A stretch of DNA of 64,000 nucleotides from assembly GCA_903835685.1 (NCBI GenBank), contig CAILNX010000058.1, forward strand, positions 1 to 64,000, in the 5' to 3' direction. The position numbers were made by a program, and so were the translations under genes. Shown here one piece after another: positions 45,887 through 54,740 of this stretch (position 1 is its first letter; the number at the start of each line of letters is the position of its first letter). Origin of the DNA: an uncultured delta proteobacterium. GTDB lineage: Bacteria > Desulfobacterota > Desulfovibrionia > Desulfovibrionales > Desulfovibrionaceae. The notes beneath the pieces are model-generated. The model ran no database searches, was not told the DNA's origin, and saw only the letters and a program-made list of their open reading frames with translations.

Positions 45887-47002
45887 TCAGGAAGCCTCAT
45901 CCGGCCGGGGCAAGGGCAGGCGCACGGTGAGCGTGGCCCCCTGGCCGGGTTCGCTTGCGGCCGTGATCTCGCCGTCCAGGCCGCTGACGATGCCGAAGCA
46001 GATGGACAGGCCCAGGCCCATGCCCTGGCCCACGTCCTTGGTGGAGAAAAAAGGTTCGAAGACGCTCGGCAGGTCCGAAGGCGCGATGCCCGGGCCGGTA
46101 TCCGCCACCTCGGCCACCAGGAAGCCTTCCTGGACCAGGGTGCGCAGGCGCAGGGTCCTGTCCTCGTCGGCCGTGGCGGCCAGGGCGTCCAGGGCGTTGT
46201 CCAGCAGGTTGCCGAAGAGGTGGTCCATGTCCGCCGGGGCCAGGAGCAGTTCGGGCAGGTCCTGGGCCAGGTCCTGGGCCAGGTCCACGCTTAAGGTCTG
46301 GATGCGCTCGGCGCGCTCGGCCAGGCATTTGTGCAGGATCTCGTTCAGATTCACCGGCCGGACCCGGGGATCGTTGTGCTTGCCGAAGCGCAGGAGCTTG
46401 GCCGTGATGGCCCGGCAGCGCTTGGCCTGAACCTTGATCTTGTCCACGGACCGGGTCATTTCCTCCCGGCCGAGCAGGCCCCGGCACTCCTCTTCTTCGA
46501 GAAGGTCGCCGATCCAGCCCGCTTCCTGGACCATGATGTTGACCGGATTGTTGATCTCATGGGCCAGGCCCTCGGACAAGCGGCCGAGTGCGGCCATGCG
46601 CACGAGTTCCTCCATGCGCGCACGTCCCAGGCGGCGGTCCTGGTGGGTCTTGGCCTGGCGCACGGCCTGGGCCAGGACATCGACGTCCACGGGCTTTTGC
46701 AGATAATCCGAGGCCCCGAGCTTCATGCCCTTGACTGCGGTGCCCACGTCCGAGGCCCCGGTGAGCATGATCACCTCGGTCTGGGGCTTGAACTCCTTGA
46801 TCTCCCGGAGCACGTCCACCCCGGAGCGGCCGGGCATGTTCACGTCCAGGACCACCACCGGGGCGTCGTGGGCCTTTAAGTAGGCCACGGCCTCGTTCCC
46901 GTCATGGGCGCAGGCCGTGGCAAAGCCGCGCAGGGCCAAACGTTTGGCCAGGGCCAGGACGAATTCCCGTTCGTCGTCAACCAGGAGCACGTCGATCTTC
47001 AT
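45887..47002 (-). CDS. Receiver-histidine kinase hybrid
   Basis: A 371-residue soluble protein. A receiver at the N-terminus (phosphoacceptor Asp53 in VVLDVNMPG) is followed by HisKA (EGLAHEINNPVN, His149) and HATPase with GPGIAP and GMGLGL boxes. It lacks a sensor domain, so phosphorylation of the receiver probably controls the kinase. It ends the nine-gene operon, 100 bp after the receiver gene; that gap carries two small GC hairpins. Confidence 0.92.
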   Translation of the reverse strand: MKIDVLLVDDEREFVLALAKRLALRGFATACAHDGNEAVAYLKAHDAPVVVLDVNMPGRSGVDVLREIKEFKPQTEVIMLTGASDVGTAVKGMKLGASDYLQKPVDVDVLAQAVRQAKTHQDRRLGRARMEELVRMAALGRLSEGLAHEINNPVNIMVQEAGWIGDLLEEEECRGLLGREEMTRSVDKIKVQAKRCRAITAKLLRFGKHNDPRVRPVNLNEILHKCLAERAERIQTLSVDLAQDLAQDLPELLLAPADMDHLFGNLLDNALDALAATADEDRTLRLRTLVQEGFLVAEVADTGPGIAPSDLPSVFEPFFSTKDVGQGMGLGLSICFGIVSGLDGEITAASEPGQGATLTVRLPLPRPDEAS

Positions 47003-47102
47003 GTCCCGCCCTTGCCTGGTGGTCCGGACTGACTCGGATTGGCCCGGATTGGCCCGGGCAGTGTCCGCCCGCTTTCGCCCGTTCCCGGGCGGCGCTGGCC
47101 CG

Positions 47103-47576
47103 CTATTTGCCGACCTTGTCCTTCAAGCCCTCGTTGAGCATGTGGTCATCGGCCGAGGAAAAGTCCCCGGCTTCGGCAAAGGTGGCGGCCACCATCACGT
47201 CTTCCAGCTTCTTCCGGTAGGCGTTCTTGATGCTGAACACCAGGTCGTCGATGTCCACGGGCTTTCTGTGGTATTCATAGGCCCCGATGCGGGAGGCTTC
47301 TTCCCGGTCCTGTTCCGTGCCATGTCCGGTGAGGATGATGACCTGGACCTGGGGATGGGACTTTTTCACCCGGCGCAGAACTTCCATGCCGTCGATGCCG
47401 GGCATGCGCAGATCCAGCACGATGACGTCCGGGGTCTCCTTTTCCAGGGCGTCCAGGCCCTCTTCGCCGTTTAAGGCCACCTTGGGGCGGAAATCCCGCA
47501 GTTGCAGGCGTTCGGCCAGGGCGCTGACAAAATTCTCCTCATCGTCCACCAGCAAGAGCTTTATCTTCTTCATCAT
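47103..47576 (-). CDS. Single-domain response regulator
   Basis: A 157-residue receiver (Asp55 in VIVLDLRMPG; conserved Asp11/Asp12, Thr in ILTGHG and Lys in RKPVD). A 30-residue tail extends beyond the fold, with no output domain. It should relay phosphate inside the module. Two adjacent ATGs are present; the second has better AAGGAG spacing. It is 21 bp after the DHp-only gene. Confidence 0.92.
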   Translation of the reverse strand: MMKKIKLLLVDDEENFVSALAERLQLRDFRPKVALNGEEGLDALEKETPDVIVLDLRMPGIDGMEVLRRVKKSHPQVQVIILTGHGTEQDREEASRIGAYEYHRKPVDIDDLVFSIKNAYRKKLEDVMVAATFAEAGDFSSADDHMLNEGLKDKVGK

Positions 47577-47597
47577 GGTCTCCTTGTCGAGGTATGT

Positions 47598-48245
47598 TCA
47601 CGCGCCCTGGCCCTGGCCGCCCAGGCCAGGGTCATGGGCGGGAAACGTCAAAATGAGTTCCATGTCCGCCACCAGACAGTCCACCCCGGCCGGAAGCTGC
47701 CGGGCCAGGACCAGATCCGGCACCGGGGCCAGATCACTGTTCGCGGCCTGGTCGCAGGACAGCCGCAGGGCCGGGCGTCCCTTGAAGGAATCCACCCGGA
47801 CGTTCACTATGGAGCACTGGGGCAAAAGCTCGGTGAGCTGCTCCATGACCAAAAAAAGCGAGCGCATGGCCTCCAGCACGGTGAGCCCGGCCTGTATCTG
47901 CCCCCCTGGGATCAGGACGAAGTTCATGCGCCGGGTCTGGGTGATGCGATAGGCCAGGAAGATGGTCCGCCGGGCCACTTCGGCCAGGTCCACGGGCACG
48001 ATCTCGGACTGGGAGGCGTGACCCAGGCGGTTGACCTCGCTGGACAGCCGCACCCCCCGCTCCACCAGCTCCTGGATGGAGGAGAGCACCTTGCGGAATT
48101 TGTCCCGGTTGGGGCAGTCCTTCTCCTTGGTCATGGCCAGGAGGTCGTCCATGAGCCCGGCCGATTCCTTGACGCCAGCCAGCACGTTCTGGATCTCGTG
48201 CATGGCCGATGCGGTCAGGCGGCCCATGAATCCGACCTTGGCCAT
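47598..48245 (-). CDS. Histidine-domain protein lacking a kinase ATPase core
   Basis: A 215-residue protein. The N-terminal helix carries an H-box, SAMHEIQNVLAG with His16, typical of HisKA. The following segment SEIVPVDLAEVARR recalls the start of a HATPase domain, but N, G1 and G2 boxes are not seen. It could be a phosphotransfer or dimerisation protein relaying between the receivers beside it. GGGAG precedes the ATG. It begins 1 bp after the upstream receiver gene stop. Confidence 0.75.
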   Translation of the reverse strand: MAKVGFMGRLTASAMHEIQNVLAGVKESAGLMDDLLAMTKEKDCPNRDKFRKVLSSIQELVERGVRLSSEVNRLGHASQSEIVPVDLAEVARRTIFLAYRITQTRRMNFVLIPGGQIQAGLTVLEAMRSLFLVMEQLTELLPQCSIVNVRVDSFKGRPALRLSCDQAANSDLAPVPDLVLARQLPAGVDCLVADMELILTFPAHDPGLGGQGQGA

Positions 48246-48246
48246 G

Positions 48247-48639
48247 TCAGGCTCCCTTGATCTGGGCCGCGGCCGTGACGGCCTCGCCGATCTTGCCGAT
48301 CAGTGCGTCGATGTCGATGGGCTTCATCATGTAGTCGAAAGCCCCTTCGTGCATGCCCTCGATGCCGTCCCGGGCCGTGCCCTGACCGGTGAGCAGGATG
48401 ATCTGCACCTCGGGGTTGCTCCGGCGGATGCGCCGGAGCACTTCCAGCCCGCGCATGCCCGGCATCATCACGTCCACCACGGCCACATTGGGGCAGTTCT
48501 CGGCCACCCGGGCCAGGGCCTGTTCGCCGTCCAGGGCCACCCGGGCTCTTATGCCCCGCAGGGAGAGGCGTTCGGCCAGGGTGGCCACGAAATCCTCTTC
48601 GTCATCGACGAGAAGAACGTTCCACTGGGTCATATCCAT
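48247..48639 (-). CDS. Single-domain response regulator
   Basis: A 130-residue receiver with Asp12/Asp13, phosphoacceptor Asp56 (VAVVDVMMPG), Thr in LLTGQG and Lys in MKPID. No output domain. It is very similar to the receiver at 47103-47576, and lies between the dCache kinase and the DHp-only gene, 4 bp after the kinase stop. Confidence 0.92.
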   Translation of the reverse strand: MDMTQWNVLLVDDEEDFVATLAERLSLRGIRARVALDGEQALARVAENCPNVAVVDVMMPGMRGLEVLRRIRRSNPEVQIILLTGQGTARDGIEGMHEGAFDYMMKPIDIDALIGKIGEAVTAAAQIKGA

Positions 48640-48643
48640 GCTC

Positions 48644-50365
48644 TTACATCGCTCCTTCCGGGGGTTTCTTGGGCAGGAACATGGTGAAGGTCGTTCCCTG
48701 GCTCACCTTGCTCTGCACGGTCAGCTCACCGCCCAGGCGTTTGATGATGCCATAGGTGATGGACAGACCCAGGCCCGTGCCCTGGCCTTTCTTGGTGGTG
48801 AAAAACGGCTCGAAAATGTGGCCCAGGGTCGCTTCGGACATGCCGCAGCCGTTGTCCTGGATGGACACGCCCACGGTGTCCAGGTCCTTCTCCCAGGTGG
48901 TCATGGAGATGAACCCGCCGTCGGCCACGGCGGCCAGGGCGTTGTTCACGATGTTTAGGAACACCTGCTGGAGCTGGCCCCGGTCGGAAGCGATGTGGGG
49001 CAGGTTGTCGCCCAGGTTCAGGCGGATGTCCACGTTGCGGTAGGAGGCCTCCTTGTTCAGGAACTCCAGCGTCTCGGTGATGATCTCGTTCACGTCCAGG
49101 ATCTCGATCTTCACCTCCATGCGCTTGGCGAAACCGAGCATGCGGTGGGTGATGCCCCGGCAGCGTTCCACGGCCTTGGTCACCGCGTCGGTGAGACCCA
49201 GGAACTTGTCCCGGTCCGGGAACTCGGCTTTCAGCCGGATCAGGTCGCGCATGAGCCCGGTCTTCTCGTTGATGATGGCCAGGGGGTTGTTCACCTCGTG
49301 GGCCAGCCCGGCGGCCAGCCGCCCGATGGAGGACAGCTTCTGGGTGTGCTCCATCTGCTTGAAGGCCATCTCCCGTTGCATCTCGCTGTCACTCATGCGC
49401 TTGAGCAAAAGGTCGGTGATCTTGTAGGCCACCAGGAAGATGAGCACCAGACCGGACAGGAAGATGAAGGCCAGGTCCGAGCGCACGGTGTACCAGGTCT
49501 GGGTGAAGGAGGCCCGGGGTTTCATGGCCATGATCACGAAGTCCGAATCCGAGGAGAAGATGTAGCTCATGAACAGGTCCCGGCCCGCGGGGTCCACCAG
49601 GGGGCGCACCGTGGATTCGTAGGTGGCCGGGGGCATGTCGATGGGCAGTTTTTCCAGGACCTTGCCGTAGTAGTTGGACGGGGTCTGGAGCACGCCTTCG
49701 CGGTTCAGGATGAAGGCGTCGCTGTCCGGCTCAAGGCTCATGGCCGCGATGAGCTTGTCGAACTGCCGGGTGTCCAGGGTGACCCTGAGTATCCAGGACT
49801 CGCCCGAGTCGGACATGTGCTGCACGGCGATGACCACGTGGGGGAACATGCGGAAACCCAGGAACACGTCGGAGATGTACTTGCCCTTGATGCGCACCTG
49901 GTTGAACCAGGCCTGCTCGGAATAGTTCTTGCCCTTCAGGTTGTACGGCCCGGCGTAACTGACCTGGGTCCCGCTGGAGTCGATGAGGCCTAAGTCCACG
50001 AAGCCCTCGAACTCCTGCTTCATGACCCGGAAGATGCGGTTCAAGGCCTTTTCGTCGGAAAGCTCCTGAAAGGGATAGGCATTGACGATGAAGCTCACGG
50101 CCGAGGTGCGCTCGGCCAGAAACAGCTCGAGCGAGGTCTTGGTCTTGCCCAGCATGGCCCGCAGGGGGTTCTGCACCTCCCGGTTGAGCGCGGTTTGGGT
50201 CTGGTGGTAGTTGATGATGGCCATGACCAGAAGGGGGAGTGCGGCCACCACGGCCATGAGGCCCACCAGCTTGGTGCGCAGGACCTTGTAGCGCTCCGGG
50301 GACATGGAGTCGTCCATGCCGCCCTGGATGTCGCGCAGATGGTGGGAGAGAATCTTTTTAAACAT
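48644..50365 (-). CDS. dCache-type sensor histidine kinase
   Basis: A 573-residue membrane kinase. Transmembrane helices lie at about 32-51 and 305-324, enclosing a periplasmic double-Cache sensor (IDSSGTQVSYAGPYN, SEQAWFNQVRIKG). The cytoplasmic part has GLAHEVNNPLAI (H-box), N-box, QDNGCGM and GTGLGL. It is a paralogue of the kinase at 5532-7361. The sensor domain fits small organic or inorganic ligands. It overlaps the NifX-like gene by 8 bp. Confidence 0.92.
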   Translation of the reverse strand: MFKKILSHHLRDIQGGMDDSMSPERYKVLRTKLVGLMAVVAALPLLVMAIINYHQTQTALNREVQNPLRAMLGKTKTSLELFLAERTSAVSFIVNAYPFQELSDEKALNRIFRVMKQEFEGFVDLGLIDSSGTQVSYAGPYNLKGKNYSEQAWFNQVRIKGKYISDVFLGFRMFPHVVIAVQHMSDSGESWILRVTLDTRQFDKLIAAMSLEPDSDAFILNREGVLQTPSNYYGKVLEKLPIDMPPATYESTVRPLVDPAGRDLFMSYIFSSDSDFVIMAMKPRASFTQTWYTVRSDLAFIFLSGLVLIFLVAYKITDLLLKRMSDSEMQREMAFKQMEHTQKLSSIGRLAAGLAHEVNNPLAIINEKTGLMRDLIRLKAEFPDRDKFLGLTDAVTKAVERCRGITHRMLGFAKRMEVKIEILDVNEIITETLEFLNKEASYRNVDIRLNLGDNLPHIASDRGQLQQVFLNIVNNALAAVADGGFISMTTWEKDLDTVGVSIQDNGCGMSEATLGHIFEPFFTTKKGQGTGLGLSITYGIIKRLGGELTVQSKVSQGTTFTMFLPKKPPEGAM

Positions 50366-50714
50366 GTGCCGCCCCCTGGCCGCGTCCGTAGAGGATGTCC
50401 CCGGACTTGAGCTGGCCCCGGGCCAGACGTTCCAGCACCAAGTCCACCGGTCCCATGATGGAGTCCAGGACCTCCACCCGTTTCCAGCGCAGGTAATGGT
50501 AATACTCTTCTTCGATGCCGTTGCACACCACGCAGGTCACGCCCCGGGACAGGGCCAGGTCGCACAGCCCGTCGGCCGAGGGCTGCTCCAGGACCAGGGT
50601 GGTGGTCAGGGCCGCGCCTTCCTCGGGCAGGGTGGCCAGCATGACCGCCTGGGCCAGGTCGAAGCGGGGGGCCACGTCATTGGCCTGCAAGGGGATGAGG
50701 ATGGTTCGGGCCAT
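50358..50714 (-). CDS. NifX/NifB-C-type cofactor-binding-fold protein
   Basis: A 118-residue protein with the dinitrogenase iron-molybdenum cofactor fold (ARTILIPLQANDVAPRFD; GVTCVVCNGIEEEYYHYLRW). Such proteins bind metal clusters or act as small regulators. No nif genes are nearby, so a role in nitrogen fixation is unlikely; sensing of a metal or sulfur species is possible. It lies 7 bp after the AAA+ gene and overlaps the kinase. Confidence 0.78.
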   Translation of the reverse strand: MARTILIPLQANDVAPRFDLAQAVMLATLPEEGAALTTTLVLEQPSADGLCDLALSRGVTCVVCNGIEEEYYHYLRWKRVEVLDSIMGPVDLVLERLARGQLKSGDILYGRGQGAAHV

Positions 50715-50721
50715 GGCGCGC

Positions 50722-51951
50722 CTACCGGGCCTTGGCCCTGGATTTGCCCCGGCCCGCTTCCAGGGACAGATGCGCGGGCAGGTGTTCGGGCAGGATGGCC
50801 TCGCCAGGGCAGACCATGACCGCATAGTCCACGATGTTCTTCAGCTCCCGGATGTTGCCCGGGAAGGAATAGGAGGCCAGGGCTCGCCGGGCCTCTTCGG
50901 AAAAGGCCGTGACGTTCTTTTTCAGCTTGCGGGCAAAGGCGCGCAGGAAATGGGTGAGCAGGAAATCCACGTCCTCCCGGCGTTCCCTCAAAGGGGGCAG
51001 GTGGATGCGGAAGGCGGACAGGCGGTGAAAGAGATCCTCGCGCAGACGCCCGGAAGCCAGCAGGGCCTCGGGCGAGGTCCCGGTGACCGCGATGACCCGG
51101 GCATTGACCCGCACCGGCTTGTCCCCGCCCAGGGGCAGGACCAGGCGTTCGTCCAGCACGCGCACCAGCCGGGCCTGCTGGGCCAGGGGCAGGTCCGCGA
51201 TCTCGCTCAGGCAGATGGTCCCGGCCCCGGCGGCCTGGAGCTTGCCCGGCTTGTCCTCCTCGGCCCAGGGGGCCGCGCCCTTGACATGGCCGAAGAGCTC
51301 GGACTCAAGCAGGGCCTCGGGCATGGGGCTGCAACTCACGCGCACAAAGGGCTGGCGGGAGCGCGGGGATTGCCGGTGCACGGCCTCGGCCAAGAGGTCC
51401 TTGCCGGTGCCGGTCTCCCCGGTGATGAGCAAAGGGGCCTCGCTCTGGGCCAGGATGGGGATCAGGGCCAGGATGCGCTGCATTTCCGCGCAGCGGGCCA
51501 CCAGGGTGTGCAGGGTCCCGATCTCCGGAACATCCTGGCCGCCCACCGACGGGGTTTTCAGTTCCTCCACCACGTCCAGGCGGAAGAGCAGCTCGCCGCC
51601 CCGGTCCCGGACCTGGATGGGCGTGACCCGCACCGGCAGCCTGCGCCGGTCCCGGGACAGGCAGTCGCCCTCCACCGAGGCCTGAAGGCCTTCGGACAGA
51701 TGCGGGCAGCGCCGCAGGCAGGTGGAGGCCCGCAAGACCTGGCCGCAGGGCGCGCCCATGGCCTCGCTCCGGGAAAACCCGGTCAGGGCCTCCAGGGCCT
51801 TGTTCAGGAACAGGATGCGCCGCTCCTTGTCCAGGACCACCACGCCCACGGGCAGGCCGTCGAGCAGGGCCGCGAAGTCCATGCTCGAGGCGTCCAGGCC
51901 CGAAATGTGCGGGGCGGAGAGGTCCAGGGTGGGGAGGTCCGGGATGATCAA
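50722..51951 (-). CDS. PAS-AAA+ protein, degenerate sigma-54 activator
   Basis: A 409-residue protein. A PAS domain (about 24-110) has Cys69, Cys78 and Cys82, a set that could bind a cofactor. The AAA+ core keeps Walker A GETGTGK (168-174) and the arginine-finger region GRLREDLFHRL. The sigma-54 contact loop, GAFTGA in active proteins, reads HVKGAAPWA (212-220), and Walker B DE becomes LSE (238-240). The C-terminus lacks a Fis helix. It is therefore probably not a promoter activator but a PAS-driven regulator. The TTG start at 51951 has AAGGAG upstream; residue numbers count from it. Confidence 0.75.
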   Translation of the reverse strand: MIIPDLPTLDLSAPHISGLDASSMDFAALLDGLPVGVVVLDKERRILFLNKALEALTGFSRSEAMGAPCGQVLRASTCLRRCPHLSEGLQASVEGDCLSRDRRRLPVRVTPIQVRDRGGELLFRLDVVEELKTPSVGGQDVPEIGTLHTLVARCAEMQRILALIPILAQSEAPLLITGETGTGKDLLAEAVHRQSPRSRQPFVRVSCSPMPEALLESELFGHVKGAAPWAEEDKPGKLQAAGAGTICLSEIADLPLAQQARLVRVLDERLVLPLGGDKPVRVNARVIAVTGTSPEALLASGRLREDLFHRLSAFRIHLPPLRERREDVDFLLTHFLRAFARKLKKNVTAFSEEARRALASYSFPGNIRELKNIVDYAVMVCPGEAILPEHLPAHLSLEAGRGKSRAKAR

Positions 51952-51985: not shown

Positions 51986-52405
51986 CTAGTGGGCTCCGCC
52001 GCCGACGATGCCAGAGGCGGCGAAGGACAGGACCAGGATTTCAAGAACAGCGATCAGGGCGTAGATCGGCCTTTTTTCCTTGATATAGGCCGGGATCAGC
52101 GGAATGAAGCAGATGATGGTCATTCCGGCCAAAATGGCCAGGCCCCCGAAATTGAGGAAATCGCCCGTGTTGAGCAGATACACCCAGCCCCAGCCCTGGG
52201 GCGCATGGCCTTGGACCATGTATTCATGGGCACTTTTCTCCCACAGGACTATGACCTTGTCCAGGGGGATGTGCGGGGCCAGGATGCCCGTGACGTAGAT
52301 CGTGTAGGTCAGGGCCAGGAGGGCCAGGGAGCCCCAGCTCCCGTAGAAGAGCAGGTCGGCGTAAATGATCTGTTCCTTTGGGGTCTTGCTCATGCTCGTG
52401 GACAT
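51986..52405 (-). CDS. Three-helix membrane protein (DUF1634-like)
   Basis: A 139-residue membrane protein with three hydrophobic helices (about 15-40, 75-105, 115-135). The layout resembles DUF1634 proteins, which accompany TauE/SafE exporters, but the assignment is by recollection. AAGGAG precedes ATG 52405. It follows the TauE gene by 47 bp and may be its partner subunit. Confidence 0.65.
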   Translation of the reverse strand: MSTSMSKTPKEQIIYADLLFYGSWGSLALLALTYTIYVTGILAPHIPLDKVIVLWEKSAHEYMVQGHAPQGWGWVYLLNTGDFLNFGGLAILAGMTIICFIPLIPAYIKEKRPIYALIAVLEILVLSFAASGIVGGGAH

Positions 52406-52452: not shown

Positions 52453-53433
52453 CTAGATGCCCAGGCCTTTGAGCAGGGCCTTGCCGCCGGCAAACAGGAG
52501 CACGCCGATGACCATGTAGCGGATGAACTTCGGCTTGGCCTTGGCCAAGAGGCGCACGCCCATGAACGAGCCGAGCATGAGCCCGATGATGGAGGGGATG
52601 GCCATGAGCGGGATGACGCAGCCCTGGTTTAAGTAGACCCAGGCCGCCGAGGTGTCGGTGATGGACAGGAGGAATTTGCTGGTGCCCACGGCCACTTTGA
52701 GCGGCGCGCCCATGAGCATGTTCAGGACCGGGACGTTGGCCCAGCCAGCGCCCAGGCCGAACATGCCGGCCATGACCCCGATGACGATGAAGAGCAGCAT
52801 CCCTTGGAGGGTGCGGTGGGTCTTCCACTCCACGGCCTCGCCCGTGGACTCCTCCATGTACACCCCGCTCATGCCCAGGGCCAGGCTGATGGCGTCCTGC
52901 TTCTCCACGTGGGGCCGGACCACGTTCTTGGAGGTGAGGAGCAGGATGGCGATGAACATGATGGTGCCGCCCAGGCAGAGCTGAACCACGTTGGTGGGCA
53001 GGGCCAGGCCCAGAAAGGCCCCGCCGATGGCGCAGGTCGAGGCGATGAGGGCCACGGGTAGGGCCAGGCGCAGGGAGGCCAGGTTGCGGCGGAGTAAGCC
53101 CGGCCCGGCGGCGAGCGCCCCGGCCAGGGCCACCAGCAGACCCGCGCCGCGCACGAAGTCCAGGTGGAAGGGGAAGAACCCGCTCACCAGGGGCACGTAG
53201 AGCACGCCCCCGCCCACCCCGGCCAGCACCGCGATGATGCCCAGGATGAAGCAGAAGAACAGAAGAATGAGCGGCCAGCCCCACCAAGGCATGCTGGAGT
53301 TGCCGGTCATCATGGCCGCTTCCTTGGCCACGGCCACGCCGCCGTCGGCCCCGGCCCAGGCAAATACCCCGGCCAACAGACAGATGCAGACCGCCGTGAA
53401 AAAGATGATTTTTGTATTCTTCGCCCTCAGCAT
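52453..53433 (-). CDS. TauE/SafE-family anion exporter
   Basis: A 326-residue membrane protein. An N-terminal signal-like helix (8-27) is followed by eight or so transmembrane helices. GVGGGVLYVPLVSGFFPFH and a second GLGAGWANVPVLNML are the duplicated family signatures. TauE/SafE proteins export sulfite, sulfoacetate or related organic anions. In a sulfate reducer sulfite or thiosulfate is plausible but unproven. It is the first gene of the operon, preceded by a sigma-54 promoter and operator palindromes. Confidence 0.88.
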   Translation of the reverse strand: MLRAKNTKIIFFTAVCICLLAGVFAWAGADGGVAVAKEAAMMTGNSSMPWWGWPLILLFFCFILGIIAVLAGVGGGVLYVPLVSGFFPFHLDFVRGAGLLVALAGALAAGPGLLRRNLASLRLALPVALIASTCAIGGAFLGLALPTNVVQLCLGGTIMFIAILLLTSKNVVRPHVEKQDAISLALGMSGVYMEESTGEAVEWKTHRTLQGMLLFIVIGVMAGMFGLGAGWANVPVLNMLMGAPLKVAVGTSKFLLSITDTSAAWVYLNQGCVIPLMAIPSIIGLMLGSFMGVRLLAKAKPKFIRYMVIGVLLFAGGKALLKGLGI

Positions 53434-53510: not shown

Positions 53511-53526
53511 ATCAATTCCCGTGCCA
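53511..53526 (-). promoter_or_regulatory. Sigma-54 (-24/-12) promoter for the exporter operon
   Basis: Minus-strand TGGCACG-GGAA-TTGAT matches TGGCACG-N4-TTGCW with one mismatch. The -24 GG and -12 region have standard spacing. Transcription would begin near 53500, about 65 bp before the exporter ATG. Confidence 0.75.
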
Positions 53527-53579: not shown

Positions 53580-53595
53580 CGGCAAGAACTTGCCG
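53580..53595. promoter_or_regulatory. Operator copy 1: CGGCAA-N4-TTGCCG
   Basis: Perfect inverted repeat with GAAC between the arms. It lies about 80 bp upstream of the expected exporter start, where sigma-54 activators bind. Confidence 0.75.
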
Positions 53596-53600
53596 GTGTG

Positions 53601-53616
53601 CGGCAAAATGTTGCCG
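53601..53616. promoter_or_regulatory. Operator copy 2: CGGCAA-N4-TTGCCG
   Basis: Perfect inverted repeat with AATG between the arms. Its centre is 21 bp from copy 1, two helical turns, so dimers could bind cooperatively on one face. Confidence 0.75.
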
Positions 53617-53702: not shown

Positions 53703-54740
53703 ATGGAATTCAAAGACAAAGAAAGCGGCAATTTTTTGCCGCATCCCTCCCGGGGTCTTTTGCCCGTTGAACCGGAATTCATTTTCCGCTCGGCCTCCAT
53801 GCGCGCCCTGTGCGACCTGGCCGCCCAGGTGGCCCCGTCCGACGCCCCGGTGCTCATCAGCGGCGAGTCCGGCACGGGCAAGGAGCTCTTCGCCCGGCTC
53901 CTGCACACCTTGAGCAACCGGGGGGAGAAGCCCTTTGTGCCGGTGAACTGCGGGGTGCTCAAGGGCGAGCTGTTCGCGGACAAGTTTTTCGGGCACGAGA
54001 TGGGGGCCTTTACCGGGGCCAACCGCCGCCAGAAGGGCAGTTTCGAGCTGGCCGAGGACGGGACCCTGTTCCTGGACGAGGTGGGGGAGATTCCCCAGCC
54101 CAACCAGGTGGATTTCCTGCGCGTACTGGAGGAGAAGCTGTTCAAGCGCCTGGGCGGGGAGCGCGACCAGCCCTTCCAGGCCCGCATCGTGGCCGCCACC
54201 AACCGGGTCCTGCCGGAAATGGTCCGGGAGGGGACCTTTCGGGCCGACCTGTTCTACCGCTTGAACGTGGTCCCGGTGTCCCTGCCCCCCTTGCGCGAGC
54301 GCCAGGAGGAGATCCTGCCCCTGGCCGAGCATTTCCTGACCCATTTCTGCCACCGCTACCACAAGCATGGGCTGTCCATGGGGCCGAGGACCGTGCGGGT
54401 CCTTATGCGCTACGACTGGCCGGGCAATGTGCGCGAACTGAAGAATCTGGTGGAGCGGCTGGTGCTGCTTTCCCGGGGCGGGGCCATCCGGGCCTCGGAC
54501 CTGCCGCTCGAGATGCAGATGGGGGCCACCACCGAGGCCTCGCCCCGGGACAGCGCCTGCCACACCCTGGAGACCGCCGTGCGCGAGGCCGAGATACGGG
54601 CCATCTTAAGGGCGTTCAAGGCCGCGCACGGGAACAAGCCCGAGATCGCCCGGCTTCTGAACATCAGCCCGCGCACCCTGCGCCTGAAGGTCGCCCAGTA
54701 CGATTTGAAGGAGCGGCTCTCCCGCCGGGCTGCGGGCTAG
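53703..54740 (+). CDS. Sigma-54-dependent activator, AAA+ with Fis-type HTH
   Basis: A 345-residue activator. A short N-terminal region without receiver or PAS precedes the AAA+ core. Walker A is GESGTGK (54-60), the sigma-54 contact loop GAFTGA is intact (101-106), Walker B is LFLDEVGEIP, and the R-finger region FRADLFYRL follows. A Fis-type helix-turn-helix (EIARLLNISPRTLRLKV) closes the protein. Its lack of an input domain means control by another protein or by expression. Three identical palindromes nearby, one within its own first codons, are the likely binding sites. It diverges from the exporter operon. Confidence 0.9.
   Translation: MEFKDKESGNFLPHPSRGLLPVEPEFIFRSASMRALCDLAAQVAPSDAPVLISGESGTGKELFARLLHTLSNRGEKPFVPVNCGVLKGELFADKFFGHEMGAFTGANRRQKGSFELAEDGTLFLDEVGEIPQPNQVDFLRVLEEKLFKRLGGERDQPFQARIVAATNRVLPEMVREGTFRADLFYRLNVVPVSLPPLRERQEEILPLAEHFLTHFCHRYHKHGLSMGPRTVRVLMRYDWPGNVRELKNLVERLVLLSRGGAIRASDLPLEMQMGATTEASPRDSACHTLETAVREAEIRAILRAFKAAHGNKPEIARLLNISPRTLRLKVAQYDLKERLSRRAAG
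53726..53741. promoter_or_regulatory. Operator copy 3: CGGCAA-N4-TTGCCG, intragenic
   Basis: Perfect inverted repeat with TTTT between the arms, lying over codons 8-13 of the activator gene. Occupancy would block transcription or looping near its start, suggesting autorepression or DNA looping to copies 1 and 2. Confidence 0.7.

Follow-up and report, generated by a model that had tools for sequence, protein, structure and literature searches.

A degenerate PAS-containing paralog of sigma-54 activators as a possible regulatory subunit of the sensor-less DVU2956-type activator in Desulfovibrionales

Partners of sigma-54 activators that lack an HTH, such as FleT, and activators working as hetero-oligomers, on record for HrpR/S and the VnfA paralogs (PMC9542535), are already known. 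FleT of Rhodobacter has no DNA-binding domain, is produced from a FleQ-driven operon and is inactive alone, and its hetero-oligomers with FleQ activate later promoters (PMC11999139, PMC7277832). In D. vulgaris Hildenborough, DVU2960 carries GAFPGA and was regarded as a doubtful activator with no regulon (Kazakov et al. 2015, PMC4641369). In the same study, DVU2956 bound the DNA upstream of DVU2957 in gel shifts and DVU2960 did not, and the authors suggested partners for proteins that, like DVU2956, have no N-terminal domain (PMC4641369). Biofilm is repressed by DVU2956 (review, PMC8586430). A partial search of the literature retrieved no PAS-bearing partner devoid of the sigma-54 loop and obligately tied to a sensor-less activator.

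The locus described here lies in a window of 64,000 nucleotides, the whole stretch of DNA analysed, and resembles each of these systems in part. Like DVU2960, its degenerate activator paralog occupies the same position in a sigma-54 operon divergent from a DVU2956-type gene and has a non-GAFTGA loop, DVU2960 having shown no DNA binding; unlike DVU2960, which has GAFPGA and an annotated HTH, the present protein and its orthologs in more than ten genera are without the loop, the HTH and the Walker-B Asp. With FleT of Rhodobacter (Cereibacter) sphaeroides it shares, judged here from sequence, the condition of an HTH-less paralog encoded in the operon of its DNA-binding partner; FleT, however, acts as a hetero-oligomer and positive co-activator and has no N-terminal domain (PMC9542535), whereas the degenerate protein carries PAS at its N-terminal side, its sigma-54 loop is destroyed and its Walker-B Asp is missing. 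In Pseudomonas syringae, HrpR/HrpS form a hetero-hexamer of two activator paralogs, an association of the kind that we propose here, but they are joint co-activators at the hrpL promoter and include no PAS-bearing degenerate subunit. VnfA1/VnfA3 and VnfZ of Azotobacter vinelandii likewise combine interacting activator paralogs with an adjacently encoded small metal-linked protein, although the paralogs carry GAF domains and VnfZ, a homologue of substrate-binding proteins, is not NifX-like (PMC9542535). In the PspA-PspF pair, too, a sensor-less activator is restrained in trans by a protein that its own operon encodes, PspA not being an AAA+ paralog. We propose that the pseudo-activator is a regulatory subunit of the activator encoded divergently at 53703, a reading to which we give an even chance of being right.

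The degenerate gene and its operon

The degenerate gene, the DVU2960 ortholog, occupies 51951-50722 on the minus strand and encodes 409 amino acids, starting at TTG with AAGGAG 8 nt upstream. Pfam assigned a PAS domain, Sigma54_activat (PF00158, E 6e-51) and an AAA lid, which makes the protein a bEBP by descent, but found no HTH_8, the chain ending 17 amino acids past the lid. The sequence SELFGHVKGAAPWA stands where activators have the segment ending in GAFTGA; by sequence and alignment, the altered L1 loop GHVKGAAPWA lies at approximately 51260-51289 (minus strand), with GAAPWA at the GAFTGA position. The sequence-only reading had reported GAFTGA and the Fis HTH as missing, and both absences were borne out, here and in the orthologs from more than ten genera. 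It was equally right that Walker A (GETGTGKD) and the arginine-finger region (LREDLFHRL, with both arginines) are kept, as is sensor II (GNIRELKN). Its statement that LSE replaces the Walker-B DE was half correct, since in ICLSEI the Asp has given way to Ser while the Glu is retained. Compared with a functional bEBP, the protein therefore has Walker A, the arginine fingers and sensor II, and lacks the GAFTGA loop, the Walker-B DE pair and the Fis-type HTH. This triple loss of loop, Walker-B Asp and HTH was seen in none of the 26 other activators read in the source genome (one of them cut off by a contig end before the HTH; one further activator was left unread), and a scan of genome contigs returned distant activators only. 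In the AlphaFold model the AAA+ domain has pLDDT >90, and the nearest solved structures are those of NtrC1, including its ATP-bound Walker-B mutant.

The PAS part carries a Cys motif, PC-x8-C-x3-CP (window 51686-51765, minus strand), possibly a metal or redox site. The motif is common to the degenerate and full-length clades and missing from a few members. The Cys-containing PAS domain invoked as the controlling element was recovered as a triad in 28-30 of 34 degenerate proteins, but it is neither universal nor distinctive, full-length relatives being alike in this respect (20/22, by motif match).

The intact activator (DVU2956 ortholog; 53703-54740, plus strand) has GAFTGA, LDE and a Fis HTH; Pfam found PF00158 and HTH_8 in it and no sensor domain. 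The divergent operon begins with a TauE/SafE (TSUP) permease gene (52453-53433, minus; PF01925) and continues on the same strand with a small membrane protein of 139 amino acids (51986-52405), the degenerate gene and a gene for a NifX-like protein of the Nitro_FeMo-Co family (50361-50714, minus; Pfam match in 10 of 12 orthologs). Downstream follow a dCache sensor histidine kinase (48644-50365, minus) and the rest of a phosphorelay, namely a receiver, a DHp-only kinase-like protein, a second receiver and a receiver-kinase (45887-48639, minus). The kinase-like protein (47598-48245, minus) matches HisKA weakly and lacks an ATPase domain; in most operons read it sits between two receiver proteins and resembles a phosphotransfer step. 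The order of divergent activator, tauE, small protein, degenerate gene, NifX-like gene, dCache kinase and receivers matches DVU2956 and DVU2957-2967; beyond DVU2956, DVU2957 and DVU2960 the gene-by-gene correspondence is in part presumed.

The operon promoter proposed at 53511 proved to be real: a sigma-54 -24/-12 element, TGGCACGGGAATTGAT, lies at 53526-53511 on the minus strand, where 0.04 matches would be expected in the window, and it is conserved solely where the activator is present. Two palindromic putative enhancer sites, GGCAA-N4-TTGCC, are located at 53581-53594 and 53602-53615, 21 bp apart, and a third at 53727-53740, inside the activator gene, at the 5' end of its coding sequence (none with an assigned strand). 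The third site is perhaps autoregulatory, and a comparable distal site occurs in most loci. The promoter scored 0.86 in 38 loci with the activator against 0.72 in 35 without it (Mann-Whitney p 1e-11, a value that overstates independence because the counts share ancestry and the tauE tree needs just two changes), and palindromes with at most one mismatch averaged 2.6 per locus against 0 in the same sets. A wider enhancer regulon was considered and rejected, as nine further exact sites elsewhere in the genome each stand alone, lie mostly within ORFs and have no convincing promoter.

These data bear on whether the degenerate subunit is instead a positive partner, needed for activation or retargeting it, as in FleQ/FleT. 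The operon topology is the same in both systems and FleT sets the precedent, but the genome scan showed the enhancer motif clustering at this locus only, with no second set of target promoters, and the sigma-54 loop of the degenerate protein is destroyed; we regard this alternative as improbable.

Ancestry, conservation and co-occurrence

The proteins encoded in the operon group as a single clade (SH-aLRT 99). Its sister group consists of full-length PAS activators that have GAFTGA, an HTH and LTE at Walker B. The degenerate gene belongs to the DVU2960 orthologous group by its operon slot and by its monophyly with the GAFPGA/HTH form of genus g50 (SH-aLRT 99). Genus g50, which the shared GAFPGA and HTH would identify as that of D. 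vulgaris, is the earliest branch of the clade and has GAFPGA, LTE and HTH; loop and HTH are lost in all other in-operon members, a single change on the tree. To guard against circularity the tree was rerun with the loop masked, and the result was unchanged. Loop intermediates are GAFPWA, GSYPWA, GGLPWV and GAAPWA, and in many other members the loop is shortened. That the protein might still activate sigma-54 or another RNA polymerase through its altered loop is very improbable: a changed loop is compatible with activity in some activators, DVUA0100 with GVATGV having been thought active (PMC4641369), but here the loop is unconserved in the clade and often shortened, no HTH is present, and no binding to the promoter region was seen with the ortholog DVU2960 (PMC4641369).

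Loss of the Walker-B Asp came first and is common to the GAFTGA-bearing relatives, and is therefore not by itself the mark of a decoy. In the full-length relatives with intact GAFTGA and HTH (L015-L037), the Walker-B Asp is replaced by Thr and the sensor I Asn by His or Leu. Among 35 degenerate orthologs the Walker-A Lys and the sensor II Arg are invariant (35/35 each), the Walker-B Glu is kept in 33 and the two arginine-finger residues in 29 and 32, whereas neither the GAFTGA Thr nor the Walker-B Asp survives in any (0/35 each). Genus g25 (L054, L061, L106) has lost the arginine-finger residues too, which argues against a conserved role for them in that genus. Mean column identity is about 0.7 in the AAA+ core against 0.36 in the loop, and the PAS part evolves faster.

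With several motifs gone, a variable loop and a faster-evolving PAS part, the gene has some traits of a decaying, functionless relic, but a frame open in more than ten genera, a conserved AAA+ core and a dN/dS of 0.07-0.36 in within-genus pairs, indicating that the gene is maintained, leave that reading with hardly any credibility. Frameshift, pseudogene and chance were dismissed on the same open orthologs and dN/dS values.

The small membrane protein served as locus marker and was found in 118 of 297 genomes of the order, from which loci were retrieved for 96 informative cases. Wherever the activator is present (61 of 61 loci), the degenerate and NifX-like genes accompany it, and both are absent from all 35 loci without it. 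The NifX-like gene, directly downstream, is thus a third obligate partner, overlooked in the sequence-only reading. The permease gene and the small protein persist in all loci, and 12 of the 35 activator-less ones still have the kinase cluster, so the mid-operon pair was lost jointly with the divergent activator. In L088, L089, L092-L097, L101 and L116-L118, tauE, the small protein and the kinase cluster are kept, and the activator, the degenerate and NifX-like genes and the enhancer sites are gone. The joint loss spans two non-adjacent stretches, the divergent activator and the mid-operon pair, and extends to the promoter and every GGCAA-N4-TTGCC site. On the tauE tree the pattern takes two changes (two independent pairs, p 0.5), and the co-occurrence, though strong as a pattern, is therefore statistically weak, the independent events being few. 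A presence of the module beyond the order was rejected, activator orthologs being confined, in a sample of 395 phylum genomes, to the family of the window itself.

The NifX-like gene raises a further possibility, a stand-alone ATP-dependent PAS switch that has the NifX-like protein or else the phosphorelay as its partner, outside the activator's ring. In every degenerate locus the NifX-like gene follows immediately downstream, and it adjoins the full-length relatives in all eight whose surroundings were read, so the NifX-like partnership is older than the link to the activator. The evolutionary rates of activator and degenerate protein covary slightly (partial r 0.26, p 0.012; activator and histidine kinase 0.51), and covariation with other operon genes is of similar size, in keeping with such a switch; as proof of contact, rate covariation was rejected for want of specificity. 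A stand-alone switch, however, leaves unexplained both the joint gain and loss of the divergent activator and the ring-interface arginines retained in most members, and we hold it to be rather unlikely.

A proposed sensor and feedback brake

The obligate pairing, the sensor-less activator, the retained ATP-binding and ring-interface residues and the shared operon lend support, in outline, to the earlier idea of a regulatory decoy; its Walker-B Asp argument fails, as full-length GAFTGA-bearing relatives lack that Asp too. Taken together, the data suggest that in many sulfate reducers the degenerate protein is sensor and feedback brake of a sensor-less activator. As the sites and promoter indicate, the activator would bind GGCAA-N4-TTGCC and drive the operon from the -24/-12 promoter. 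The operon would yield the degenerate protein, which probably binds ATP and hydrolyses it poorly. Through its arginine fingers, which may work on the ATP site of a neighbouring subunit, the protein could enter the AAA+ ring of the activator, giving mixed rings. A subunit without sigma-54 loop or HTH but with a PAS domain would then let ring activity be set by the state of that domain, in whose control the NifX-like protein may take part. Since the operon driven by the activator also encodes the degenerate protein, the action of that protein would amount to feedback on the activator, most likely negative, as a brake.

Work on PspF gives this scheme a biochemical footing. The D107A variant has a near-normal Km, but its Vmax drops to 0.23 per min, from 39.5, and subunits defective in Walker B complement arginine-finger variants in trans (PMC3419264). 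On these data, a subunit with Walker A and arginine fingers but without the Walker-B Asp and L1 loop is predicted to join rings and alter their behaviour. More tentatively, and with less than even confidence, the locus may encode a split activator in which sensing sits on a catalytically dead AAA+ paralog, blind to DNA and sigma-54 and made only once the ring has fired, with output on separate subunits and with the NifX-like protein as possible ligand carrier.

DVU2956 controls biofilm formation, has been connected with sulfide production in sulfate reducers that cause corrosion, and has neither a sensor domain nor a known input; its disabled obligate partner is the strongest candidate for supplying one. 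The stepwise series from GAFTGA with HTH, through GAFPGA with HTH, to loss of both loop and HTH would represent an activator turning into a regulator of another activator.
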